A stretch of 64,000 bases of DNA, from the NCBI RefSeq assembly GCF_914768045.1, contig NZ_CAJZCD010000005.1, forward strand, positions 1 through 64,000. The letters are read 5' to 3'. The DNA comes from Snodgrassella communis. Its GTDB lineage: Bacteria; Pseudomonadota; Gammaproteobacteria; Burkholderiales; Neisseriaceae. The notes beneath the pieces are model-generated. The model was not told where the DNA came from. It did not search any database and was given only the letters and a program-made list of their open reading frames with translations. Within the stretch, counting starts at the first letter, position 1; the number at the start of each line of letters is the position of its first letter. The position numbers and the translations under genes are program-made. Shown one piece after another: positions 22,625 to 61,524 of this stretch.

Positions 22625-22657
22625 TTCTACCCCATACAATATAAGCTCAAAACATTT

Positions 22658-22684
22658 CAACCGTTGTGAAGATCACAATGGTTG
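22658..22684 (-). terminator. Terminator of the prophage 1 late operon
   Basis: 11-bp arms CAACCGTTGTG / CACAATGGTTG around AAGAT, 18 bp beyond the Rz1 stop. The homologous hairpin in prophage 2 (59544-59570) carries paired changes that keep the stem, which supports a real RNA structure at the end of late transcription. Confidence 0.7.
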
Positions 22685-22702
22685 ATTCTTTACTTACAAG
22701 CT

Positions 22703-22963
22703 TTACTGAATAGCTTTTACCAGCGCGCTATGCCGCCTTGCGCAGTCGTTATACTTCCCTACCACCCCAACTGCCCACGGCAAGATGTCTGCGCCTGTAG
22801 ACCCGTTTAACGGGCTTAATTCAGGACATGGCTCGACAAGGTTGGCTGGAATGCTAGCGACTGCTGATTGCTTCGTTGATGATGCGCACCCCTGAAGCAT
22901 CCAGACACACATTAGTGTACACAGGAACTTTAACAATCTTTGTAACTTGTGCTTGTCGTTCAT
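22703..22963 (-). CDS. Rz1-like outer-membrane spanin lipoprotein
   Basis: 86 residues. The N-terminal signal ends in a lipobox (MLQGC, Cys about residue 26), so the mature protein is a lipoprotein of the outer membrane. It starts inside the Rz-like gene in another frame (22854-23189), the classic nested Rz/Rz1 layout. The mature part is Pro/Ser-containing and short, as expected for an o-spanin that pairs with Rz to fuse inner and outer membranes at the last step of lysis. The copy in prophage 2 differs at one residue. Confidence 0.85.
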   Translation of the reverse strand: MNDKHKLQRLLKFLCTLMCVWMLQGCASSTKQSAVASIPANLVEPCPELSPLNGSTGADILPWAVGVVGKYNDCARRHSALVKAIQ

Positions 22964-23189
22964 CTTGTTTTACCTCACTCTTCGCTTTCTGTTTCTCGTA
23001 TTCTTGGCTGGCTTTGTTAGCCGCCTCCTGCTGTTTGTCCAAAGCTGCCTGATACTGCCGCCGAACTTCTTCCGCGCCCTTGCTATAGCCTTTCTTGTAT
23101 TGCTTGCTGCCGTAGCTAAGTGCTGCAAACAACACCATCAAGGCAAGCAAAGCCCAAGCGCCTACTGCTGGGTAATTAATGTTTTTCAT
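22854..23189 (-). CDS. Rz-like inner-membrane spanin
   Basis: 111 residues. One N-terminal transmembrane helix (AVGAWALLALMVLFAAL) is followed by a charged coiled-coil region (QYQAALDKQQEAANKASQEY) facing the periplasm. Its 3' part is overlapped by the Rz1-like frame. It starts 3 bp after the endolysin stop. The product should bind the Rz1-like lipoprotein through its C-terminus to bridge the envelope during lysis. Confidence 0.85.
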   Translation of the reverse strand: MKNINYPAVGAWALLALMVLFAALSYGSKQYKKGYSKGAEEVRRQYQAALDKQQEAANKASQEYEKQKAKSEVKQDERQAQVTKIVKVPVYTNVCLDASGVRIINEAISSR

Positions 23190-23191
23190 TG

Positions 23192-23623
23192 CTATACCTC
23201 AAAGTGCGGATAATCTTTAGTCTTTACCCAATCCCCGCCCCATGCCATTTTTACGCCTAATTCTGCTGCGGCTCGTTTCATGGCGTCGGCAATTACCCGG
23301 AATTTGTTTAAATCATTCCAATCTACCGGATACGGCACTAAATCCACCGCTTTGCCTGTGGTGTGCTTACTCACAAACGGGTTGTTGAGCCATGTAACTT
23401 TGCTCAAGCTTGGCTGGGCATATTTTGCCGGCACGCCTTTGACGGAACATTGCTGTGCTGTTCGCCCCTTGCCGTAGTTAATGCAACATTGTTCACGGCT
23501 GCGCAAACCCTCAGTTACCATAAAATCCTGTTTGGTGATTTCAATGGCACGCTTAACTACCTTAACCAGATTAACATCTACTCCTTGCAGATTTCCTAAT
23601 GAACGTTGGCTTAATTTGTACAT
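23192..23623 (-). CDS. M15-family endolysin (L-Ala-D-Glu / D-Ala-D-Ala type peptidase)
   Basis: 143 residues. The zinc motif SKHTTGKAVDLVP (SxHxxGxAxD) and the C-terminal PHFE (second zinc His) are those of M15 peptidases used as endolysins by phages such as T5. It has no signal peptide, so release depends on the holin encoded upstream. The start at 23623 (MYKLSQRSLGNLQG) keeps the conserved N-terminus seen in the prophage 2 copy at 60078-60509. It cuts peptide links of peptidoglycan. Confidence 0.85.
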   Translation of the reverse strand: MYKLSQRSLGNLQGVDVNLVKVVKRAIEITKQDFMVTEGLRSREQCCINYGKGRTAQQCSVKGVPAKYAQPSLSKVTWLNNPFVSKHTTGKAVDLVPYPVDWNDLNKFRVIADAMKRAAAELGVKMAWGGDWVKTKDYPHFEV

Positions 23624-23647
23624 TTAAAACCTTTCATACATAAAAAA
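23608..23647. repeat. Left copy of direct repeat flanking lysis-region cargo
   Basis: The first bases of the endolysin gene and its leader (GGCTTAATTTGTACATTT, then AAAACCTTTCATA and an A run) recur at 25536-25577 with only two small differences. The two copies enclose the cargo from 23650 to 25535, which prophage 2 lacks. Confidence 0.7.
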
Positions 23648-23664
23648 GCAGCCGTAATGGCTGC
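23642..23664 (-). terminator. Terminator between cargo and endolysin
   Basis: GCAGCC, a 5-nt loop and GGCTGC, followed on the minus strand by six T. It lies 27 bp past the stop of the 39-residue membrane protein gene. Confidence 0.6.
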
Positions 23665-23690
23665 ATCGTCGTTGTTATACAAAATCACTA

Positions 23691-23810
23691 CTATTTAATT
23701 GCGCTAATCATTTCAGGCAGTCGCCATGTCAGAACTAGCAGCAGCAGAATTACTGCTGCTGTCCACATCGTTTTTCGCAACTCTTTAGGTGTAAAATTAA
23801 TAACTTCCAT
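23691..23810 (-). CDS. 39-residue single-span membrane protein
   Basis: The track starts at 23915, but the ATG at 23810 (MEVINFTPKELRKTMWTAAV) has an AGGAG ribosome site 7 bp upstream and gives a compact protein with one transmembrane helix (WTAAVILLLLVLTW). It belongs to the cargo absent from prophage 2, between DUF4760 and the endolysin. It could modulate lysis or be part of the DUF4760 unit. No family is recognised. Confidence 0.5.
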   Translation of the reverse strand: MEVINFTPKELRKTMWTAAVILLLLVLTWRLPEMISAIK

Positions 23811-23927
23811 AAAAACTCCTAGAAACTTAAACGTAAATCGTTTATCATTGACCATGTTGTTTAAAGCCTCATTTGAATAACAAAGCCCCCAAGGAGTTCG
23901 AGTCCCTGAGGGCAATTTTTTTATATT

Positions 23928-23952
23928 AAAAAAGCCAGCACGAGGCTGGCTT
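23928..23952 (-). terminator. Terminator after the DUF4760 gene
   Basis: AAGCCAGC / GCTGGCTT stem with A and T runs outside, 17 bp beyond the stop at 23970. A second hairpin (GCCC...GGGC, 23885-23913) lies just to the left, with a T run on the plus strand. Confidence 0.65.
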
Positions 23953-23969
23953 GATTTAATAGATTTAAA

Positions 23970-24470
23970 TTACTTTTTTTTCTCTTTTAATGGTTTCTTT
24001 TTCCATCTTTTAGCTAAACATTCAAACTCCTGAAACATGGTTTGAATTTGTTTTTTATTTCGTAATTCAGTAACGAATCCACTCAGATTATCCCAATCTC
24101 TCATATGCATAGAATATTGAAAGCTTTTATAAATCTTTTCATCAAGAGCCCCTCCCAATATAGCTACAGACATAAATTCTCGATGGTTTAGAACTTTTAA
24201 TATTGCTGCTCTATCCTCAGAAAATTTTTCATCTTCAGATATATACGCAGCATATATACATTCCTTATTTTGTTTAGCTAATTGATTAACACGAGAAACA
24301 GCTTTTTGAAGTTCAGAATTATTTCTTTCTGCAACTATCATATCTATAGTTCCTCGTTTTTTCGCGTTTTTCGTGTTCGTATATATACTCCATGCAGCAA
24401 CAATAACGCCGATTGCAGTAGCGATCGGCGATATTAATTGCGCCCATTGAGGGACGTCAGTCATTACCAT
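23970..24470 (-). CDS. DUF4760-like membrane-anchored protein
   Basis: 166 residues. One N-terminal membrane helix (LISPIATAIGVIVAAWSIYT) is followed by a cytoplasmic helical domain with VLNHREFMSVAILGGALDEK and a Lys-rich tail. The helix plus the NHREF segment fits DUF4760 proteins, which are found in prophages and defence-like cargo; their activity is not established. The alternative ATG at 24464 would give a product only two residues shorter. It lies in the cargo between endolysin and holin that is missing from prophage 2, so it is accessory. Superinfection exclusion is one possibility but is unproven. Confidence 0.55.
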   Translation of the reverse strand: MVMTDVPQWAQLISPIATAIGVIVAAWSIYTNTKNAKKRGTIDMIVAERNNSELQKAVSRVNQLAKQNKECIYAAYISEDEKFSEDRAAILKVLNHREFMSVAILGGALDEKIYKSFQYSMHMRDWDNLSGFVTELRNKKQIQTMFQEFECLAKRWKKKPLKEKKK

Positions 24471-24837
24471 CCCAACCGTCTCGGTAAATTCTTTTCATAA
24501 TAAGCTCCTTATAAATTTATTACACTTCTATAAAATTTTAATTTCAGGTGGGACTAGTCGCTTTTAAGTGGGTCTAGGTGTGTTTACTTTGGTAAACTTA
24601 TTATGAACAACTAACAGCAATAAATCAAGCAATAAATGTAATAGTTACAATATTTAAATTCATTAAATTCATTCATTTAAGTAAATTTGATTAGTGTGAT
24701 ATAAAAAAATAACAATAAAAAACCAGCACATATGTACCGGCTTTGAATCTGTTACATAATCAAATAATAAATATGAAGCTTTTAATCAGACTAGGAGGGA
24801 AATCTCTTAGAGCTAGGCTGAGAGCTACTGCGGGCGT
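24471..24837. other. Spacer with no gene
   Basis: AT-rich DNA between the DUF4760 gene and the toxin-antitoxin pair. It holds an imperfect hairpin near 24719-24745 (CCAGC...CCGGC with flanking A run) and nothing else that I can support. Confidence 0.45.
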
Positions 24838-25113
24838 CTATTTATCGCTGTAATGTCCTTTGCATTGGATGATTTAGCAGCGATCATCAATTATCCTGTA
24901 AACAAGTCTGTTTTTATCATCTATACGTCTACTCCAGAAGCCTGACAAATTTTCTCTAAGAGCTTCTGGCTTGCCTATACCCTCGTATGGATTACGGGCT
25001 ATATCATTTAAAAGCACATTAATTTTTTTTATTGTTTTGCGATCTTGGTTTTGCCAATATGTATACTCCAGCCAGCTTTGTGGTGTGAAGTCAAAGTTCA
25101 TTTTGCAATTCAT
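24838..25113 (-). pseudogene. YoeB-family toxin truncated by an in-frame stop
   Basis: The ORF (79 residues) follows the YoeB pattern: YTYWQNQDRKTIKKINVLLN, NPYEGIGKPEALRENLSGFW, SRRIDDKNRLVYRIIDD. It stops at a TAA (24874-24876). The same frame then continues IIQCKGHYSDK to a TAG at 24838. The HY pair in that tail corresponds to the catalytic His-Tyr of YoeB, so the toxin as it stands should lack mRNA cleavage activity. The antitoxin gene upstream overlaps it by 23 bp and is intact. The change could be a toxin-killing mutation kept in a host that no longer has a threshold dose of antitoxin. Confidence 0.8.
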
Positions 25114-25351
25114 CCAGTGTTTTGCTAATCACCTCACCTGCGTTCAGTTGCGCAATAGAAACTTTCAAGGCTTCCTGATTTTTGGGGCTGTAGAATGGGT
25201 CTAAGTCAGGTCGGAACGGGAATCCTCTGTCATTAACCATTTGCTTTAAAAATACTCTGACCGCCGTTGTTAAATCCATTCCTAAATCATTAGCAATCTG
25301 CTGCGCCTCGTCTCTCAGTTTGTCATCTATGCGTATTTGTAAATTTGCCAT
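25091..25351 (-). CDS. dinJ: RelB/DinJ-family antitoxin
   Basis: 86 residues from the ATG at 25351 (MANLQIRIDDKLRDEAQQIA), which has an AAGG site 7 bp upstream; the ATG at 25357 is the alternative. The N-terminal ribbon-helix-helix (NLQIRIDDKLRDEA, GMDLTTAVRVFLKQM) is typical of RelB/DinJ. The C-terminal part (NQEALKVSIAQLNAGEVISK) should wrap the toxin. It overlaps the downstream YoeB-like gene, so both are made from one mRNA, and the pair probably represses its own promoter. Confidence 0.75.
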   Translation of the reverse strand: MANLQIRIDDKLRDEAQQIANDLGMDLTTAVRVFLKQMVNDRGFPFRPDLDPFYSPKNQEALKVSIAQLNAGEVISKTLDELQNEL

Positions 25352-25535
25352 ATACAATACCTTTTAAAATCATTGTTCATTCATTTCTATCTCATTACTA
25401 CTGTAATATTATTTTAGAAATTTCGCAATTGAAATGAATGCGGAATTAGGTTTTTCGATTATGGTTGCTCATTTCTCCGCTGAAATCTAATCTTGAAATT
25501 TGCTACGTGTTCAGATATTAAGCCAGTATTAGGCT

Positions 25536-25577
25536 GGCTTAATTTGTACATTTCAAAACCTTTCATATATAAAAAAA
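25536..25577. repeat. Right copy of direct repeat flanking lysis-region cargo
   Basis: A duplicate of the endolysin start region (GGCTTAATTTGTACATTT and the following leader), here without a gene. See 23608-23647. It marks the right boundary of the cargo block. Confidence 0.7.
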
Positions 25578-25604
25578 CCAGCCGATGGCTCATCAGCCGG
25601 CATT
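25573..25604 (-). terminator. Terminator after the holin gene
   Basis: An imperfect stem (GCCGGCTGATGAGCCATCGGC on the minus strand) followed by seven T. It lies 68 bp beyond the holin stop and would limit read-through into the cargo. Confidence 0.55.
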
Positions 25605-25671
25605 GTATAAATTAATATAATTCAATTAATTACAATTAAAATAACCGCAAAAACAGGGTGTAGCCGGCATC

Positions 25672-26007
25672 CTATTTCTGCCTGTCGTCTGTATCACCAA
25701 TCATCTTTTCTGCCCTGTTACAAACCGCATTGATCAGCTTTTGTGCCAGCTTCGGTGCTGTGGCCTTGAATGCGTCCAGCAGAGACGTGGAGGCCATACC
25801 AGCAAATACACCAGCACCTGCAAATAGCCAAGGGTGGTTCTGCGTGAAGAAATATTCCGTTAATGCTGCCGCAAAAACCATGCCTATAATGATGAATGTA
25901 ACGGTTAGTACTGTCCCATAGCGTTTGTAATCAGATACCACCAGCGCGCCTAGAAAGCCGCCAGCAAGGGCGAAGCAATTGGCTAATGTGAAAGCCTCGT
26001 TCATCAT
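25672..26007 (-). CDS. Phage holin-like protein (about 3 membrane spans)
   Basis: 111 residues with three hydrophobic stretches: ANCFALAGGFLGALVVS, GTVLTVTFIIIGMVFAAALT and WLFAGAGVFAGMASTSLL. A charged C-terminus ends TDDRQK. Size, topology and location beside endolysin and spanins point to a holin that opens the inner membrane for the endolysin. Its start overlaps the stop of the next gene upstream (26004) by ATGA. Prophage 2 carries an almost identical copy (60677-61012). Confidence 0.7.
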   Translation of the reverse strand: MMNEAFTLANCFALAGGFLGALVVSDYKRYGTVLTVTFIIIGMVFAAALTEYFFTQNHPWLFAGAGVFAGMASTSLLDAFKATAPKLAQKLINAVCNRAEKMIGDTDDRQK

Positions 26008-26480
26008 TCACCGCCTTTTTTGTCTTCTACCTGTTTGGTGTGTTTGATTAGATTCCTGCCGGCAAGGGCGCAGATGATGGCAATAACAGGATAGGTGGTC
26101 ATGCCTGTAGACAAAGGCGGGTATGCTGCGATAAATGCTCCGGATATAACCACCCAGATTAATGCCGACCAGATCAGGAAACAGCCAGACAGGATATTGC
26201 TGCGGCTGGAATGAAAAAAGGCAGCAAATAGCTGCCCTGCTGCCACAATTACCAGAATGGCCACGAATATTTTAGGGTGAAGATGCAGGAATTTTTCGTA
26301 TAAGTCCTCTTTAATCATCTCTTCGCCATGCAGTGCAAATACTAGTGCAAATCCCAGCATGGCAAATCCGCTTAGTACTTCGATTATTCGTGTGCCGGTA
26401 CCAAATAACCAATCTTGGCATTTATCCGGTAAAAAGCGTAAATCAAGCAACCAGTGCAACCACTTAAATGCTTTAAGCAT
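26004..26480 (-). CDS. Lysis-cassette membrane protein
   Basis: 158 residues from the ATG at 26480 (MLKAFKWLHWLLDLRFLPDK), the start shared with the prophage 2 copy; the track start at 26510 adds ten poorly conserved residues. Four hydrophobic segments are visible: EVLSGFAMLGFALVFAL, IFVAILVIVAAGQLFAAFF, LIWSALIWVVISGAFIAA and TYPVIAIICALAG. It overlaps the holin gene and may be a second holin or an antiholin that sets lysis timing. I cannot tell which from sequence. Confidence 0.6.
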   Translation of the reverse strand: MLKAFKWLHWLLDLRFLPDKCQDWLFGTGTRIIEVLSGFAMLGFALVFALHGEEMIKEDLYEKFLHLHPKIFVAILVIVAAGQLFAAFFHSSRSNILSGCFLIWSALIWVVISGAFIAAYPPLSTGMTTYPVIAIICALAGRNLIKHTKQVEDKKGGE

Positions 26481-26528
26481 GATGTACTTACTCCATAAAA
26501 ATACCGCCAATAGGCGGTTAGTTGTTTA

Positions 26529-26554
26529 AATAAAAAAGCCAGCACTAGGCTGGC
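26529..26554 (-). terminator. Terminator between tail and lysis genes
   Basis: GCCAGC / GCTGGC stem (5-nt loop) followed on the minus strand by six T, 22 bp past the stop of the 26576-27583 gene. Confidence 0.65.
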
Positions 26555-51328: not shown

Positions 51329-51997
51329 ATGAAATATAATGTTGGTGCATGGGTAAAAGATGCTCGTCTAAACGCAGGACTTAGCCAAGAAAAATTAGCA
51401 TTTTCATTAGAAGTTGGAGGGAAAGCGACAGTCTCTGCTTGGGAGAAGAATAAAAATTCACCTCCGTTTGAGATTATGGTTAAAATTTCTGATATCTGTT
51501 CTTATCCATTACCTTACATTGAACCAAAAACATCCTCAGCCTCACCAATATTGGAAATAAAGCCTAGAAATGGATTTATTCAGTTCAAGCTTCTCGATGT
51601 TAAGGCTGCTGCTGGAGCAGGGGCGATAAATAGCGATTTCCCTGAGCCAATTCAACTAATCGAAGTGTCGGAAGCTTGGGCAAGAAAATATATTGGTGGG
51701 AATTACAGTTCAATATCTATAATTACTGCGTACGGGGATTCAATGGAGCCCACATTTGAAAGTGGCGATTTGTTGTTTATTGATGGGACTGTGAATTTCT
51801 ATTCTACTGAGGGTATTTATGTTTTTGCATCACCTATCGGGTTGAGTGTAAAAAGATTACAGCACTCAATTGACGGGTCTTTACGTGTTATTAGCGACAA
51901 TAAAAATTACCCAGTTGATATTTTATCAGGGGACGAGATTGATTCAATTAAGATATGCGGAAAAGTTATTGCAGTTCTTCGTCTTGATAGAATCTAA
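51329..51997 (+). CDS. CI-like S24 phage repressor
   Basis: 222 residues. N-terminal XRE helix-turn-helix (GAWVKDARLNAGLSQEKLAF, GKATVSAWEKNKNSPP). The C-terminal S24/LexA-type domain has a candidate cleavage region (VKAAAGAGAINSD), the catalytic Ser in ITAYGDSMEPTF and the catalytic Lys in PIGLSVKRLQHS. It should keep the prophage silent by binding the operators upstream, and self-cleave after RecA activation. It converges on the second S24 repressor at 52132-52806 with a shared terminator. Confidence 0.9.
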   Translation: MKYNVGAWVKDARLNAGLSQEKLAFSLEVGGKATVSAWEKNKNSPPFEIMVKISDICSYPLPYIEPKTSSASPILEIKPRNGFIQFKLLDVKAAAGAGAINSDFPEPIQLIEVSEAWARKYIGGNYSSISIITAYGDSMEPTFESGDLLFIDGTVNFYSTEGIYVFASPIGLSVKRLQHSIDGSLRVISDNKNYPVDILSGDEIDSIKICGKVIAVLRLDRI

Positions 51998-52131: not shown

Positions 52132-52806
52132 CTAGCCACAACGCCAGACTTTTCTCCCTAAAATCTCAAGTGTATTTGCTTGACTGTATGAAACCTTAAT
52201 AGTCTCATAGTCACTATTTGAACTTATCAAGTCAATACCATCACCGGTCTGCCTAAGTCTTTTAATAAAAAAATTATTTTTATAAACAATAGCATATATT
52301 TCATCATCCACCAATTCGATATCATTAATATTTATCATTACAATATCGTTATTCTCTAAATGTGGAACCATGCTATTACCTTTAAAGCGCACAGCTCGCA
52401 AATCACTGGGTATTAAATTTTCAGATTTAAACCACACATTTCTAATTAACAAAGGTACCTCAGCCTCTTTTATAACCCATCTAGCATTCCCTTTACCTGC
52501 TGATAAATCGAAATCACACATCATGATCTGCTTGTGTGTACGAGTGGAATCAAAATTTTCTGTAAATCCTATACTATCCTCTGACGGTATAAATTCTTCC
52601 CCACACAGTAACCACGACACTGTTACACCTAAGACTTTAGCAACATCTTCCATGCGTGTCCTTTTTGGTGCAGTAGCTTCTGTTTCATCGTCATTTTCCC
52701 ATAATTGGATAGCTGTAGGCGATAGACTTAACTTTGCTGCAAATTGCGCTTGAGTTAAACCTTTGGCAATTCTAGCTTTTTTAATACGAATGTGAATATT
52801 ACTCAT
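52132..52806 (-). CDS. Second S24 repressor-like protein
   Basis: 224 residues. XRE helix-turn-helix (KKARIAKGLTQAQFAAKLSL, SPTAIQLWENDDET) and S24 domain with the catalytic Ser in VRFKGNSMVPHLENNDIV and the Lys in KNNFFIKRLRQT. Residues around MCDFDLSAGKGNARWVIKEA hold a possible cleavage region. It is unlike the first repressor in sequence. It has its own upstream region that faces right towards the C4-like RNA and a TAAGTCAAT palindrome. It may control superinfection or the cargo to the right. Confidence 0.8.
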   Translation of the reverse strand: MSNIHIRIKKARIAKGLTQAQFAAKLSLSPTAIQLWENDDETEATAPKRTRMEDVAKVLGVTVSWLLCGEEFIPSEDSIGFTENFDSTRTHKQIMMCDFDLSAGKGNARWVIKEAEVPLLIRNVWFKSENLIPSDLRAVRFKGNSMVPHLENNDIVMININDIELVDDEIYAIVYKNNFFIKRLRQTGDGIDLISSNSDYETIKVSYSQANTLEILGRKVWRCG

Positions 52807-55413: not shown

Positions 55414-55659
55414 ATGAAAAAAAATGCACTGCTAGCCACTTGGGTGGCTTTTTTTATTGCTGGTTGTGATTATGCAGAAGAGAGAAAAAGCAGAGTAGCG
55501 GAACGGGCTGGTAAAGATATTATGGAAACACAGGTTGTATTAGATGATGGACGCAAAATCACTTGCCTTGTTTACAGCGGCTGGTATAACGCCCCACCAA
55601 TACAACCGCCCTATCCCACTCCTAGCGAATTTACTAACAACAGGCAACTTAAATCATGA
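55414..55659 (+). CDS. Small lipoprotein
   Basis: 81 residues from the ATG at 55414 (MKKNALLATWVAFFIAGCDY); the track start 18 bp upstream is a TTG. The hydrophobic leader with a lipobox (FIAGC) shows export and lipid attachment. The mature part has ETQVVLDDGRKITCLVYSGW and a Pro-rich stretch. A lipoprotein in a prophage accessory run could block receptors or exclude other phages; no proof. It overlaps the DUF2493 gene by four bases. Confidence 0.6.
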   Translation: MKKNALLATWVAFFIAGCDYAEERKSRVAERAGKDIMETQVVLDDGRKITCLVYSGWYNAPPIQPPYPTPSEFTNNRQLKS

Positions 55660-56066
55660 ATGTTATCGTTTGCGGTGGTCGTATCGTTTCTGGTGATGGT
55701 TTTCGCCGTATCGTAGCCAGAACATTACTATCAATACACACTAGTACCCCTATTGATACCCTGATTGATTCTGGAGCCTCTCACGGTGCGGTTTACTTAG
55801 CACGGGAATGGGCAAAAGTGCACCATATCCAGACCAAAAGCTTTACAGCCTTGCCTAATCCACACGGGAACCATTGCGGGCACATGCGTAATAAAAAGAT
55901 GATTGATTACGCCCTGCACCACAATGCCCCTAAAGGTAGCCAGAATCATACCATGCTGGTAATTTTCAAAGACAAGCATGGCCGTGGTACTAAGGACATC
56001 ATTAAACAGGCTAAAGAGGCAAATATTCTTGTTTGGGTAGTTGATTTAGAAAATGAGGCCAGCTAA
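55656..56066 (+). CDS. DUF2493/YspA-type SLOG-family protein
   Basis: 136 residues: MNVIVCGGRIVSGDGFRRIV (nucleotide-loop GGR), PIDTLIDSGASHGAVYLARE and MRNKKMIDYALHHNAPKGSQ, VIFKDKHGRGTKDIIKQAKE. These are the signature parts of the DUF2493/cpYpsA SLOG Rossmann fold, thought to bind nucleotide-like ligands. Such genes are common phage accessory genes of unknown job. A terminator overlaps its stop codon. Confidence 0.8.
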   Translation: MNVIVCGGRIVSGDGFRRIVARTLLSIHTSTPIDTLIDSGASHGAVYLAREWAKVHHIQTKSFTALPNPHGNHCGHMRNKKMIDYALHHNAPKGSQNHTMLVIFKDKHGRGTKDIIKQAKEANILVWVVDLENEAS

Positions 56067-56082
56067 ATGCTGGCTTTTTTAT
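56058..56082 (+). terminator. Terminator at the DUF2493 stop codon
   Basis: GCCAGC, TAAAT loop and GCTGGC followed by six T. The TAA stop lies in the loop. Confidence 0.7.
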
Positions 56083-56272: not shown

Positions 56273-56300
56273 CAACTGAATTTCTACCCCATACAATATA
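56273..56300. repeat. Second copy of a 28-bp repeat (see 22616-22643)
   Basis: Identical for 28 bp to the copy next to attL, beginning CAACTGAATTTCTACC. It sits in the 300-bp gene-free gap before the exonuclease-like gene. Confidence 0.8.
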
Positions 56301-56531
56301 ACCTCAAAAATAGTTAGATGCAGTTGTGTGTGTGATGTATAAGCCTGAGCATTACAAAATTCTAGCATTATTTTATTATTTGATTCTGTTACGCAATCAA
56401 CCACTCTGTTTTGACTTGCTCGCAGGTATAGTTCAGTTATGATTAGAGAACTGTTCGGTTTTTCCGAACAGTTTAGTTTAAAGATTTCCTAGTGTTGTGA
56501 TAAGATTCGAAAATAACACAAAGGGAATATT

Positions 56532-56594
56532 ATGGCATTAAAAAACCTATATGAATTGTTAAAAATTAAACCGGCTTTAATGGGGGAGTACTAA
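56532..56594 (+). CDS. 20-residue leader peptide resembling the next protein's start
   Basis: ATG at 56532 after AAGGGA: MALKNLYELLKIKPALMGEY. It ends 2 bp before the next ATG and its GGGGGAG provides that gene's ribosome site. NLYELLKIKP mirrors NLYKLLGLPY of the next protein, so it is either a coupled leader or the remains of an earlier J-domain start. Confidence 0.4.
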   Translation: MALKNLYELLKIKPALMGEY

Positions 56595-56596
56595 AA

Positions 56597-57886
56597 ATGA
56601 TATTCCCGAATCTGTATAAGTTACTTGGATTACCATATAAAGTAAGTGAATCAGAAATATGTATCGCATTGGCTGGATTATACAAAAAGAAAGCTGATAA
56701 AAGATTTATTGAGTCGGTGCGTAAAATCCTACTTGATGCTGACCAACGAGTGAAATATGACGGAAAATTGTGTGAACTCGGATTAGCAACTCCGAGAGAT
56801 TTCATTACTAATGCAATGCCAGAGGCAATAAATGTTAGGCAAAAACAAAATAATCCTATATTAGATTTATACAGTAGTTTTGTTGCTGTAGACATTGAAA
56901 CAACGGGGTTAAGTCCAGATACAGATGAAATCGTTGAGTTATCAGCTATTAAATTTGTAAATGGTGTTGTAGTCGATAAATTTACCTCATTAGCTAAGCC
57001 ATCCAAACGCATACCAGAACGAGTTATCGCTATACATGGCATTGATAATGATATGGTAAAAAGTTCACCACCCCCGATAGAAGTAGTAAAAAAATTTTGG
57101 TCATTTGTGGGAAATGAACCCATTGTTGCTCACAATGCAAAATTTGATATGAGTTTTATCCATAATTCATATATACACGCTTCAGAATTTATTTCACGGG
57201 GCAGCATAGTCCGTTCGCATCCGGTATTTGATACTTTACCATTATCCAGATATATGTTTCCTGATTTATATAATCATAAATTAGGAACGATAAAAGATTA
57301 TTTAGGTATCGAATCAGTATCTCATCGTGCTGAATCTGATGCTATTGCAGCCGGTAAGGTATTTTATGCCACTAAAAATGTGATGGATAATTGTAGACAA
57401 CATATAGATTTCCTTAATAAATCTGATGAAAATTTACATAACAGTATCATAAAAATTTTATCAGAATATGGCATTAACACTGATTATATTTTACATAAAA
57501 ATGCTGGTAGAGGTTTGCGGTCAACCAGTTTTTATTACCCAATTTATCGGTATCAAGTCTCCAGTAAAAACAAATATGTGCTAACTAATAGTAGCCGAAT
57601 ATTTCTAAAGAGATTGGGAGAAACTGTACGAAATAGTTTAAAGAGTCAATATGAGGAAAATAAAGTCATACTCAGGTCGGACTATAATTTTTTTTATACG
57701 ATACCTTATGATGTGATTGCAGCCTATTGGAGAGCCAATGGATACGTTAATAATCAATTAAAAATAACTGTTACAGATTTTTTAATACAATTTTATTCAT
57801 ATTTAAAATTTAATAATTCGGGGGACGCTGTTGCCGATGGACATATTGAAAAACCTGCTAATAGCAAAGAACTAGAGGAAGAATAA
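56597..57886 (+). CDS. J-like domain fused to DEDDh exonuclease
   Basis: 429 residues. Residues 1-60 look like a DnaJ-type helical hairpin (NLYKLLGLPYKVSESEICIA, RKILLDADQRVKYD) without the HPD motif. Residues about 95-265 are a DnaQ/epsilon-like 3'-5' exonuclease: FVAVDIETTGLSPDTDEIVE (DxE), PIVAHNAKFDMSF (Asp) and SVSHRAESDAIAAG (HxxxxD). The C-terminal 160 residues are unknown. It is a lone rightward gene with its own terminator, so it is cargo and might act on foreign or phage DNA. Confidence 0.75.
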   Translation: MIFPNLYKLLGLPYKVSESEICIALAGLYKKKADKRFIESVRKILLDADQRVKYDGKLCELGLATPRDFITNAMPEAINVRQKQNNPILDLYSSFVAVDIETTGLSPDTDEIVELSAIKFVNGVVVDKFTSLAKPSKRIPERVIAIHGIDNDMVKSSPPPIEVVKKFWSFVGNEPIVAHNAKFDMSFIHNSYIHASEFISRGSIVRSHPVFDTLPLSRYMFPDLYNHKLGTIKDYLGIESVSHRAESDAIAAGKVFYATKNVMDNCRQHIDFLNKSDENLHNSIIKILSEYGINTDYILHKNAGRGLRSTSFYYPIYRYQVSSKNKYVLTNSSRIFLKRLGETVRNSLKSQYEENKVILRSDYNFFYTIPYDVIAAYWRANGYVNNQLKITVTDFLIQFYSYLKFNNSGDAVADGHIEKPANSKELEEE

Positions 57887-57968
57887 ATAATTTTTTGACT
57901 GCGTTAACATGGAATCTTTCAAGATTAGACTGCACACTAAATTTATTATTTAATTATGTAACAGATTC

Positions 57969-57994
57969 AAGCCAGCATTAGCTGGCTTTTTTAT
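57969..57994 (+). terminator. Terminator after the exonuclease gene
   Basis: AGCCAGC / GCTGGCT stem followed by six T. A second small hairpin (CCGG...CCGG plus seven T) follows at 58018-58041. Confidence 0.7.
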
Positions 57995-58051
57995 TAACAC
58001 CAATGTAACAACCCATGCCGGCAATTAACCGGTTTTTTTATATAGCTAACT

Positions 58052-58393
58052 ATGAAAACTTTATTCACAACCGCAGATGTTGCTAGCTACCTTTCTCTTA
58101 ACCCTAAGGTTGTGACGGAGAAAGCGCGAAACGGTGAAATACCGGCTCATAAAAAAATTGGGCGCTGGTATTTTTTTAAAGAAGAACTTGACGAATGGCT
58201 GAAAGCCGATGCAGATTCCACACTGCAAGAGGCTACACATGCGAAAAGGAGTAAAACATGTCGAGCCGAAAAACAATCCGCGTCTATGAGCGGAAAGACC
58301 GCCGCGGGTGGTACTACTCATTCACGGCACCAAACGGACAGCGCATACGCCAAGCTGCTGGGACTGAAAACGAGCAACAAGCGCGCGAATTAG
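58052..58393 (+). CDS. xis: Excisionase-like HTH protein
   Basis: 113 residues. The N-terminal 60 residues are a MerR/excisionase-type winged helix (MKTLFTTADVASYLSLNPKV, NGEIPAHKKIGRWYFFKEEL, DEWLKADA). The C-terminal 50 residues are Lys/Ser/Thr-rich and overlap the integrase gene by 136 bp in another frame, so they may carry no selected function. Position beside the integrase suits a directionality factor that bends the att arm. No hallmark other than the HTH. Confidence 0.65.
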   Translation: MKTLFTTADVASYLSLNPKVVTEKARNGEIPAHKKIGRWYFFKEELDEWLKADADSTLQEATHAKRSKTCRAEKQSASMSGKTAAGGTTHSRHQTDSAYAKLLGLKTSNKRAN

Positions 58394-59295
58394 CAGCCAA
58401 GCATTATTATGAGTTGTTTGCTGTACAAAAGCTTGGCTACAGTCGCGAATATACATGGCGCGAAACAGTGGTGGAATGGTTGAAAGAAAATCCCCACAAA
58501 CAAAAGGATTACAACACAAAACTATTTTTACGCTGGTTAGATAAATATCTGGGCGATTTAACAATCAACCAGATAGATCGCGTAGTCCTGCGTACGATTC
58601 GTGATGCCAAGCTGAATGAAGGTCGGAAACCGAGAACCGTCAATGCTTACACGCAGCAAATCAGAATGGTTTTATTAGCAGCCAAGGAATGGGGATGGAT
58701 AACCAATCTGCCAAAGTTCAAAATGCTTGAGGAACCTAAGCGCAGAGAACGTTGGCTGACTGCTGATGAGAAAAACAGACTGTTTAAGGAACTGCCGGAG
58801 CACCTGATACCGATTGCAGCTTTTGCGCTGGCTACCGGTTTGAGAAAAGCCAATGTAGCCGGTTTGCAATGGTCGCAGGTTGATATACCAAGACGTACTG
58901 CATGGATTCATGTGGATCAGACAAAATCATCAAGAGCGATAGGAGTGCCTTTAAATGATGAAGCGATGAATGTCATTTTAAGCCAGCGCGGTAAGCACAG
59001 AACTAATGTGTTTACTTACAAGGGCAATCCAATTAAAAATCCCGCAGGTACCGCATGGAGAAAAGCATTAAAGCGTGCTCGGATTACCAATTTTCGATTC
59101 CATGACTGCCGGCACACATGGGCAACCAACCATGTCATTCAGGGAACGCCAACGCGGCCACTTCAGGAGTTAGGAGGCTGGTCGAGTGAAAAGATGGTGC
59201 AAAGGTATGCCCATTTAAATACCGAGCACTTGCGCCGGTATGCTGGAAACTCTTCCCAATTTGACACCAGTTTGACACCAGCACAAACCCAATAA
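58258..59295 (+). CDS. int: Tyrosine-recombinase integrase
   Basis: 345 residues, start supported by AAGGAG seven bases before the ATG (MSSRKTIRVYERKDRRGWYY). An arm/core-binding N-terminus is followed by the catalytic domain: AFALATGLRKANVAGLQWSQ (first Arg), FRFHDCRHTWATNHV (HxxR) and LGGWSSEKMVQRYAHL (Trp and the nucleophile Tyr). It inserts the phage into the tRNA-Ala gene whose fragment starts 50 bp downstream. Its 3' end contains two TGACACC arm-type repeats. Confidence 0.95.
   Translation: MSSRKTIRVYERKDRRGWYYSFTAPNGQRIRQAAGTENEQQARELAAKHYYELFAVQKLGYSREYTWRETVVEWLKENPHKQKDYNTKLFLRWLDKYLGDLTINQIDRVVLRTIRDAKLNEGRKPRTVNAYTQQIRMVLLAAKEWGWITNLPKFKMLEEPKRRERWLTADEKNRLFKELPEHLIPIAAFALATGLRKANVAGLQWSQVDIPRRTAWIHVDQTKSSRAIGVPLNDEAMNVILSQRGKHRTNVFTYKGNPIKNPAGTAWRKALKRARITNFRFHDCRHTWATNHVIQGTPTRPLQELGGWSSEKMVQRYAHLNTEHLRRYAGNSSQFDTSLTPAQTQ
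59262..59279 (+). repeat. Two TGACACC repeats (integrase arm sites), right side
   Basis: TGACACC at 59262 and 59273, 11 bp apart, within the last codons of int. They match the three at 22474-22502 on the inner side of attL. Confidence 0.5.
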
Positions 59296-59395: not shown

Positions 59396-59543
59396 CAGCC
59401 AAACATTTAGTTATTTATTATCAGTAATTTATATATTGCCGCTTGCCACACAATCAGCAATATTAATCAATACTAATCATTAATAGGTCGCACAAAACCC
59501 GCACAGTGGATTCGTGCCTTTTTGGACGTCAGATAATACATTT

Positions 59544-59570
59544 CAACCGTGGTGGAGATCACCACGGTTG
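59544..59570 (-). terminator. Terminator of the prophage 2 late operon
   Basis: CAACCGTGGTG, GAGAT loop, CACCACGGTTG: 11 perfect pairs. Relative to 22658-22684, both sides of the stem changed together (TTGTG/CACAA to TGGTG/CACCA). Confidence 0.75.
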
Positions 59571-59588
59571 ATTCTTTACTTACAAGCT

Positions 59589-59849
59589 TTACTGAATAGC
59601 TCTTACCAGCGCGCTATGCCGCCTTGCACAGTCGTTATACTTCCCTACTACCCCAACTGCCCACGGCAAGATGTCTGCGCCTGTAGACCCGTTTAACGGG
59701 CTTAATTCAGGACATGGCTCGACAAGGTTGGCAGGAATGCTAGCGACTGCTGATTGCTTCGTTGATGATGCGCACCCCTGAAGCATCCAGACACACATTA
59801 GTGTACACAGGAACTTTAACAATCTTTGTAACTTGTGCTTGTCGTTCAT
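59589..59849 (-). CDS. Rz1-like spanin lipoprotein (prophage 2)
   Basis: 86 residues with lipobox MLQGC, nested in the Rz-like gene in another frame, differing from the prophage 1 copy only at VRAIQ versus VKAIQ. It should be the outer-membrane half of the spanin pair. DNA identity to the prophage 1 copy is almost complete, so the cassette moved or was converted recently. Confidence 0.85.
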   Translation of the reverse strand: MNDKHKLQRLLKFLCTLMCVWMLQGCASSTKQSAVASIPANLVEPCPELSPLNGSTGADILPWAVGVVGKYNDCARRHSALVRAIQ

Positions 59850-60075
59850 CTTGTTTTACCTCACTCTTCGCTTTCTGTTTCTCATATTCTTGGCTGGCTT
59901 TGTTAGCCGCCTCCTGCTGTTTGTCCAAAGCTGCCTGATACTGCCGCCGAACTTCTTCCGCGCCCTTGCTATAGCCTTTCTTGTATTGCTTGCTGCCGTA
60001 GCTAAGTGCTGCAAACAACACCATCAAGGCAAGCAAAGCCCAAGCGCCCACAGCCATGTAATTAATGTATTTCAT
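59740..60075 (-). CDS. Rz-like inner-membrane spanin (prophage 2)
   Basis: 111 residues: one N-terminal membrane helix (AVGAWALLALMVLFAAL), then a coiled coil. It differs from the prophage 1 copy in only a few residues near the start (MKYINYM versus MKNINYP). It bridges to the Rz1-like lipoprotein during lysis and starts 3 bp past the endolysin stop. Confidence 0.85.
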   Translation of the reverse strand: MKYINYMAVGAWALLALMVLFAALSYGSKQYKKGYSKGAEEVRRQYQAALDKQQEAANKASQEYEKQKAKSEVKQDERQAQVTKIVKVPVYTNVCLDASGVRIINEAISSR

Positions 60076-60077
60076 CG

Positions 60078-60509
60078 CTATACCTCAAAATGCGGATAAT
60101 CTTTAGTCTTTACCCAATCCCCGCCCCATGCCATTTTTACGCCCAATTCTGCTGCAGCTCGTTTCATGGCGTCGGCAATTACCCGGAATTTGTTTAAATC
60201 ATTCCAATCTACCGGACACGGTACTAAATCCACCGCTTTGCCTGTGGTGTGCTTACTCGCAAACGGGTTGTTGAGCCACGTAACTTTGCTCAAGCTTGGT
60301 TGGGCATATTTTGCCGGCACGCCTTTGATGGAACATTGTTGTGCTGTTCGCCCTTTGCCGTAGTTAATGCAACATTGTTCACGGCTGCGCAAACCCTCAG
60401 TTACCATAAAATCCTGTTTGGTGATTTCAATGGCACGCTTAACCACCTTAACCAGATTAGTATCTACTCCTTGCAGATTTCCTAATGAACGTTGGCTTAA
60501 TTTGTACAT
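60078..60509 (-). CDS. M15-family endolysin (prophage 2)
   Basis: 143 residues with the zinc motifs SKHTTGKAVDLVP and PHFE. Differences to the prophage 1 enzyme are few and conservative (V/I, V/A, Y/C changes). No cargo separates it from the holin, in contrast to prophage 1; only 150 bp with a hairpin lie between. Confidence 0.85.
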   Translation of the reverse strand: MYKLSQRSLGNLQGVDTNLVKVVKRAIEITKQDFMVTEGLRSREQCCINYGKGRTAQQCSIKGVPAKYAQPSLSKVTWLNNPFASKHTTGKAVDLVPCPVDWNDLNKFRVIADAMKRAAAELGVKMAWGGDWVKTKDYPHFEV

Positions 60510-60527
60510 AATTCCATTTCCTATATG

Positions 60528-60563
60528 AAAAAAAAGACAGTCCAGAAAATGGCTGTCTTTTTG
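60528..60563. terminator. Hairpin between holin and endolysin of prophage 2
   Basis: AAAGACAG and CTGTCTTT arms around a 12-nt loop, with A and T runs on both sides. It lies where prophage 1 carries the 1.9-kb cargo. Confidence 0.55.
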
Positions 60564-60676
60564 CTTGAAAAATTAATATTACTAATCAGTATTTTACAAT
60601 ACAAAAAACTGCAGGTTTGCTGCAGCGTGAATTGTTTGTTGCATGAATAAAATTAATGCAAAACCAATTGCGTATT

Positions 60677-61012
60677 TTATTTCTGCCTGTCGTCTGTATC
60701 ACCAATCATCTTTTCTGCCCTGTTACAAACCGCATTGATCAGCTTTTGTGCCAGCTTCGGTGCTGTGGCCTTGAATGCGTCCAGTAGAGACGTGGAAGCC
60801 ATACCAGCAAATACGCCGGCACCTGCAAATAGCCAAGGGTGGTTCTGCGTGAAGAAATATTCCGTTAATGCTGCCGCAAAAACCATGCCTATAATGATGA
60901 ATGTAATGGTTAGCACTGTCCCATAGCGTTTGTAATCAGACACCACCAGCGCGCCTAGAAAGCCACCAGCAAGGGCGAAGCAATTGGCTAATGTGAAAGC
61001 CTCGTTCATCAT
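60677..61012 (-). CDS. Phage holin-like protein (prophage 2)
   Basis: 111 residues with three hydrophobic spans; one residue (TVLTITF versus TVLTVTF) differs from the prophage 1 copy. Start overlaps the upstream stop by ATGA. It should open the inner membrane for the M15 endolysin. Confidence 0.7.
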   Translation of the reverse strand: MMNEAFTLANCFALAGGFLGALVVSDYKRYGTVLTITFIIIGMVFAAALTEYFFTQNHPWLFAGAGVFAGMASTSLLDAFKATAPKLAQKLINAVCNRAEKMIGDTDDRQK

Positions 61013-61485
61013 TCACCGCCTTTTTTGTCTTCTACCCGTTTGGTGTGTTTGATTAGATTCCTGCCGGCAAGGGCGCAGATGATGGCAATAACAGGATAGG
61101 TGGTCATGCCTGTAGACAAAGGCGGGTATGCTGCGATAAATGCTCCGGATATAACCACCCAGATTAATGCCGACCAGATCAGGAAACAGCCAGACAGGAT
61201 ATTGCTGCGGTTGGAATGAAAAAAGGCAGCAAATAGCTGCCCTGCTGCTACAATTACCAAGATGGCCACGAATATTTTAGGATGAAGATGCAAGAATTTT
61301 TCGTATAAGTCCTCTTTAATCATCTCTTCGCCATGCAGTGCAAATACTAGTGCAAATCCCAGCATAGCAAACCCGCTTAGCACTTCAATTATTCGTGTGC
61401 CGGTACCAAATAACCAATCTTGGCATTTATCCGGTAAAAAGCGTAAATCAAGCAACCAGTGCAACCACTTAAATGCTTTAAGCAT
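61009..61485 (-). CDS. Lysis-cassette membrane protein (prophage 2)
   Basis: 158 residues, four spans, start MLKAFKWLHWLLDLRFLPDK. It differs from the prophage 1 copy at two positions (FFHSNRS versus FFHSSRS, TKRVED versus TKQVED). Possible second holin or antiholin. Confidence 0.6.
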   Translation of the reverse strand: MLKAFKWLHWLLDLRFLPDKCQDWLFGTGTRIIEVLSGFAMLGFALVFALHGEEMIKEDLYEKFLHLHPKIFVAILVIVAAGQLFAAFFHSNRSNILSGCFLIWSALIWVVISGAFIAAYPPLSTGMTTYPVIAIICALAGRNLIKHTKRVEDKKGGE

Positions 61486-61502
61486 GATGTATTTACTCCA
61501 TA

Positions 61503-61524
61503 AAAATGCCCTCTGCTGAGGGCG
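61503..61524 (-). terminator. Terminator between tail fibre and lysis genes
   Basis: GCCCTC / GAGGGC stem followed by five T on the minus strand, 31 bp past the fibre assembly gene stop. Confidence 0.6.

Follow-up and report, generated by a model that had tools for sequence, protein, structure and literature searches.

An HPD-less J-like head joined to a DEDDh exonuclease in a Snodgrassella communis prophage, preceded by a deletion scar

Two described nucleases provide functional comparisons for the prophage gene presented here. Olg1 of the Pseudomonas Mu-like phage Fc02, a prophage protein matched to a DEDDh exonuclease family, excludes superinfecting phages, an effect measured for Olg1 itself; our protein is likened to it by description, and no J-like head has been reported for Olg1 (PMC9936078). 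SNIPE, which consists of a GIY-YIG nuclease, DUF4041 and a transmembrane (TM) segment of its own, is placed at the membrane where it meets and cuts entering phage DNA, and is a possible parallel only, as the protein studied here is a DEDDh exonuclease without a TM segment whose separate membrane partner has been lost (PMC13190303); a Pfam scan found neither GIY-YIG nor DUF4041 in it. In both sequence and solved fold the closest relative is the exonuclease domain of PolC-type DNA polymerase III (9qpc, E 1.8e-13), but the gene encodes a separate protein of 429 amino acids with other flanking domains, and its identification as a PolC fragment was rejected because the polymerase part is absent. 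NCBIfam NF005289 (PRK06807), a 3′-5′ exonuclease family of Firmicutes, shares the exonuclease and, after it, an end domain that is possibly related; the model begins at the exonuclease, has no J-like head and matches the end domain weakly. For the head, a comparison is offered by mitochondrial Pam16, whose J-like domain acts through pairing with another J-type domain (Pam18) and has no nuclease attached; such J-to-J pairing is a feature of Pam16 and hypothetical for our protein. Druantia DruH was rejected as a DnaJ-type relative since its ‘J-like’ designation means baseplate-J-like according to the methods of its paper.

The gene lies within a 64,000 nucleotide stretch of S. communis DNA (the window; G+C 42 %) from a genome of 2.3 Mb; the leader, the exonuclease gene with its domains, the flanking repeat copies and hairpins, and the excisionase-like and integrase genes are on the forward strand. 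The initial annotation had proposed a 429 amino acid ORF (56597-57886) and a 20 amino acid leader ORF (56532-56594), both of which are present, and an unusual domain order for the former, consisting of an HPD-less J-like start, a DEDDh exonuclease with all of its motifs and an unknown end of 160 residues. That order holds up in our analysis. The exonuclease domain spans residues 93-258 (56873-57370), with residues 96-256 matching Pfam RNase_T (E 3.2e-28), and the motifs VDIETTG (at 98), HNAKFD (at 179) and HRAESD (at 243) supply a complete catalytic set (D99, E101, D184, H243 and D248) in an RNase_T fold. Structure prediction, suggested at that stage as a check, returned a confident exonuclease fold (AF2, pLDDT about 75-93 over most of the domain, lower around 185-210) and four helices in the head. 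In addition to PolC, Foldseek related the domain to DinG and DnaQ epsilon, and no TM segment was predicted in the protein. By residues, Pfam and fold the protein is assigned as a DnaQ-like DEDDh exonuclease with predicted 3′-5′ activity. A 185 amino acid antisense ORF (56566-57123) overlaps the leader and the exonuclease start.

The head occupies residues 1-59 (56597-56773) and was defined by family alignment, profile match to J domains and modelled helices at residues 6-10, 18-30, 35-45 and 48-58. Single family members fall under the Pfam DnaJ cut-off (E about 0.001-0.1). Across 15 aligned Neisseriaceae heads the core N-L-Y...LL...R..Y is invariant, the loop is shortened and HPD is found in none; a profile of these 15 members matched three J domains of that bacterial family which do carry HPD (E 5.5e-12), the alignment being gapped at the HPD loop. 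Foldseek comparison of the head of a relative (L150) with solved J domains gave probabilities of up to 0.99 but E values of only 0.1-0.4, the match to CbpA (3ucs) reaching a probability of 0.99 and a TM-score of 0.70 on target with an E of only 0.2. We conclude that the window head has a J-domain fold without the HPD motif and, as this motif is absent from the heads of the family, we name it J-like. J proteins lacking HPD are not expected to stimulate Hsp70. Strong head matches (E below 1e-9) occur in several Neisseriaceae genera and, among 200 sampled genomes of the order, are confined to this family, where the heads are attached to membrane segments, repeats or an end of the L150 type and are in some cases doubled. 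Two tandem heads are found in proteins of L135 and of genomes G032, G035, G062, G064 and G026. The J-like genes of L003 and L161 are 98 % identical over their first 203 nt with no detectable similarity beyond, and that of L160 has an L003-type body joined to the last 58 nt of L109, a pattern which by sequence comparison is that of a constant head and variable tails shuffled by recombination.

The C-terminal domain (residues 263-429, 57383-57883) has about the 160 residues given to it in the initial annotation, while the description ‘unknown’ gives way to a weak relation to the second half of NF005289. This model aligns across residues 91-364 of the whole protein at E 1e-55; the score of 189 bits lies below the curated cut-off of 335 and the protein is therefore not a member. 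The end domain alone matches positions 184-274 weakly (E 2.7e-4), and of the matches listed from 150 genomes of the order, that of the window extends to position 274 while no other goes beyond 217. For L150, a protein of the Neisseriaceae that has a J-like head but lacks an exonuclease, the end matches positions 186-311 (E 1.2e-8), and a direct comparison scored 23.0 against at most 19.2 in 30 shuffles. The sequence link between the end domain and the NF005289 and L150 types appears weak but consistent. L150 and L119 share the head and the end type of the window protein but are chromosomal and lack the exonuclease, the L119 gene (L119:1483-2409), which belongs to a further Neisseriaceae genus, having hisF and hisI on either side. 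Searches with tblastn found no relatives of the end domain in plasmids and phages and, in 299 genomes of the phylum, a single marginal match with stops besides the genome itself; in 15 Firmicutes genomes matches to the exonuclease and end covered the exonuclease only, and a homologue search of E. coli genomes gave no match. The end is poorly modelled in the window protein (AF2, pLDDT about 30-40) and the L150 end model resembles type III secretion chaperones only weakly (Foldseek, E 0.02 and worse), and no fold is therefore assigned.

The 20 amino acid leader MALKNLYELLKIKPALMGEY had been described as a peptide mimicking the J-like start. This resemblance is real, since the leader preserves codons 1-14 of a J-like paralogue. 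At L003, where the exonuclease is 97 % identical, the bases encoding MALKNLYELLK continue into an intact 175-codon gene (L003 4470-4997) whose product has a J-like head followed by two predicted membrane segments, ending in ...ALMGGG, and the exonuclease starts 3 nt past its stop. The window leader equals the first 14 and last 6 codons of this partner, 528 nt being reduced to 63 nt with 465 nt lost in frame, and the junction of codon 14 with the last six is alike in the window, L001 and L002. Because codons 1-14 are fused to the last 6 of an L003-type gene, comparison of the loci identifies the leader as a deletion scar, the stump of an upstream gene for a J-like membrane protein; a likeness by chance was rejected in view of the intact gene at L003. 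The stump retains roughly helix I of the head, and a homologue of the J-like membrane protein was not found in the genome itself. The leader has a ribosome-site-like AAGGGA, and only 2 nt separate its stop from the start of the exonuclease, which from the sequence makes ribosome hand-over possible. Upstream of the leader is a near-perfect inverted repeat, AACTGTTCGG-TTTTT-CCGAACAGTT (56448-56473), a possible operator or terminator. At L162:3935-4234 the membrane part of the partner occurs on its own, as a headless protein of 99 amino acids.

The surrounding genes include a terminase, portal, protease, major head protein, tape measure, primase/helicase, CI-like repressors, excisionase and integrase, and make up a complete-looking tailed-phage prophage; there is no tRNA in the window. 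Two CI-like repressors are found on opposite strands (51329-51997, forward; 52132-52806, reverse), and sequence of the lysis region is present twice (22650-26550 and 59530-61510), which suggests a tandem arrangement of two related prophages about the integrase. The excisionase-like gene (58052-58393) and integrase (58258-59295) adjoin the exonuclease site (combined span 58052-59295), and a YspA/YAcAr SLOG-family gene (55656-56066) lies upstream of it, with a homologue near the same site in L166.

The exonuclease gene has a G+C of 0.326 compared with 0.45-0.51 in most other phage genes tested. One terminator-like hairpin (56055-56077) lies upstream of the cassette region and another (57969-57988) closes the exonuclease unit, and the site is flanked by a 29-nt direct repeat (56372-56400 and 57942-57970; 79 % identity between copies). 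The right copy falls in a remnant that is like the 3′ end and terminator region following KilA-N genes, and the right flank resembles the stretch located after KilA-N-like (assigned by eye) and before J-like genes in L003, L160, L161 and L110. The integrase of L164 is 100 % identical to that of the window, and this locus shares window positions 56273-56407 and 57934-59295 but holds an unrelated two-gene module in place of the exonuclease cassette, so the gene is dispensable for this phage type. At L003 the exonuclease unit instead sits between tail and lysis genes. These features support the proposal of prophage cargo, which by sequence comparison is dispensable and swappable; the cargo is solitary, as had been claimed, in the window, but secondarily so, as the intact arrangement at L003 is a two-gene unit. 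The alternative cargo at the integrase-proximal site (L164:4153-5656 and L190:2998-4457) encodes a soluble protein of 323 amino acids and a multi-TM protein of 179 amino acids. No Pfam, NCBIfam or PADLOC family matched this module above threshold, homologues of both L164 genes are neighbours on a plasmid of Acinetobacter, and we regard the module as a candidate uncharacterised defence pair.

The initial annotation had suggested that the cargo may attack nucleic acids of competing phages, which by analogy is plausible. With a little under half of our confidence, we propose that the exonuclease would be expressed in the lysogen and, as a DNA 3′-5′ exonuclease of the DnaQ/PolC type, would degrade the DNA ends of infecting phages, resulting in superinfection exclusion. 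The J-like head would serve as a docking module for a partner protein instead of stimulating Hsp70. In the intact arrangement the J-like membrane protein was possibly the partner of the head, keeping the nuclease at the envelope, and the leader as it now stands would do no more than hand ribosomes on to the exonuclease start. The domains, catalytic residues, cargo position, deletion origin of the leader and pairing at L003 are read from sequence; expression, substrate, target and docking are what we infer. Consistent with exclusion are the DEDDh motifs, the PolC/DnaQ fold, the cargo traits, the L003 pairing, the intact ORFs and the precedent of Fc02 Olg1. Counting against it, DnaQ-like exonucleases serve replication too, the membrane partner is missing from this genome, so that docking at the membrane does not apply here in that form, and PADLOC gave no whole-protein defence match, only overlap of the exonuclease domain with DEDDh and PDC-S48 models, on which ground membership of a known defence system was rejected.

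Other functions can be envisaged for the cargo. In the annotation of other phages, proofreading or end-trimming roles in replication or recombination are assigned to DnaQ-like proteins, and the gene could likewise assist replication or recombination of its own phage, as its best PHROG matches (DNA polymerase and polymerase exonuclease subunit families) and nearest fold would suggest. We consider this unlikely, while deserving serious weight, given that the gene lies outside the replication genes, beside xis-int in a low-G+C unit fenced by terminators, and is missing from the prophage with the identical integrase. It is distinctly unlikely that the enzyme acts in lysogenic conversion on host nucleic acids or repair, benefiting the host in ways unrelated to phages: J-like heads with other C-terminal parts do occur in chromosomal Neisseriaceae settings such as that of L119, and the head is therefore not tied to phage conflict, but the exonuclease version was found in prophage loci only. 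We assign little probability to a decaying passenger, in which an exonuclease left without its partner would by now be subject to drift. The exonuclease is found at four loci (two identical), with the partner deleted in three (including the identical two), and amino acid changes cluster in the C-terminal end; against drift, the ORF is intact and the catalytic residues are unchanged in all copies, and dN/dS is 0.26-0.38, on few changes and from few copies, which makes this estimate of selection weak. Least credible, and hardly to be entertained, is the mimic model, in which the leader would actively imitate the J-like head and regulate the exonuclease. The leader shares the N-L-Y...LL start and is identical in L002, but one unchanged 63-nt stretch between two close relatives is no sign of constraint and the peptide joins two ends of a longer gene, intact at L003, keeping only about helix I.

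Extending the exclusion proposal to the family, the J-like head of Neisseriaceae and their prophages might be a constant dock for swapped effectors, with heads pairing as in Pam16 and Pam18 and the membrane protein recruiting the exonuclease to the envelope to destroy entering phage DNA; this extension, drawn by analogy, we think distinctly unlikely. In the leader, a small ORF resembling a regulatory mimic turns out, from comparison with the intact gene, to be a plain deletion scar. If the proposed function is true, a J-like-headed exonuclease would join the prophage exclusion genes of what is probably a bee-gut symbiont. The analysis also brings to light HPD-less J-like heads as a family, seen in the genomes sampled only in Neisseriaceae, whose partners are interchangeable, and the wholly different C-terminal parts carried by near-identical heads lead directly to asking what the head binds.
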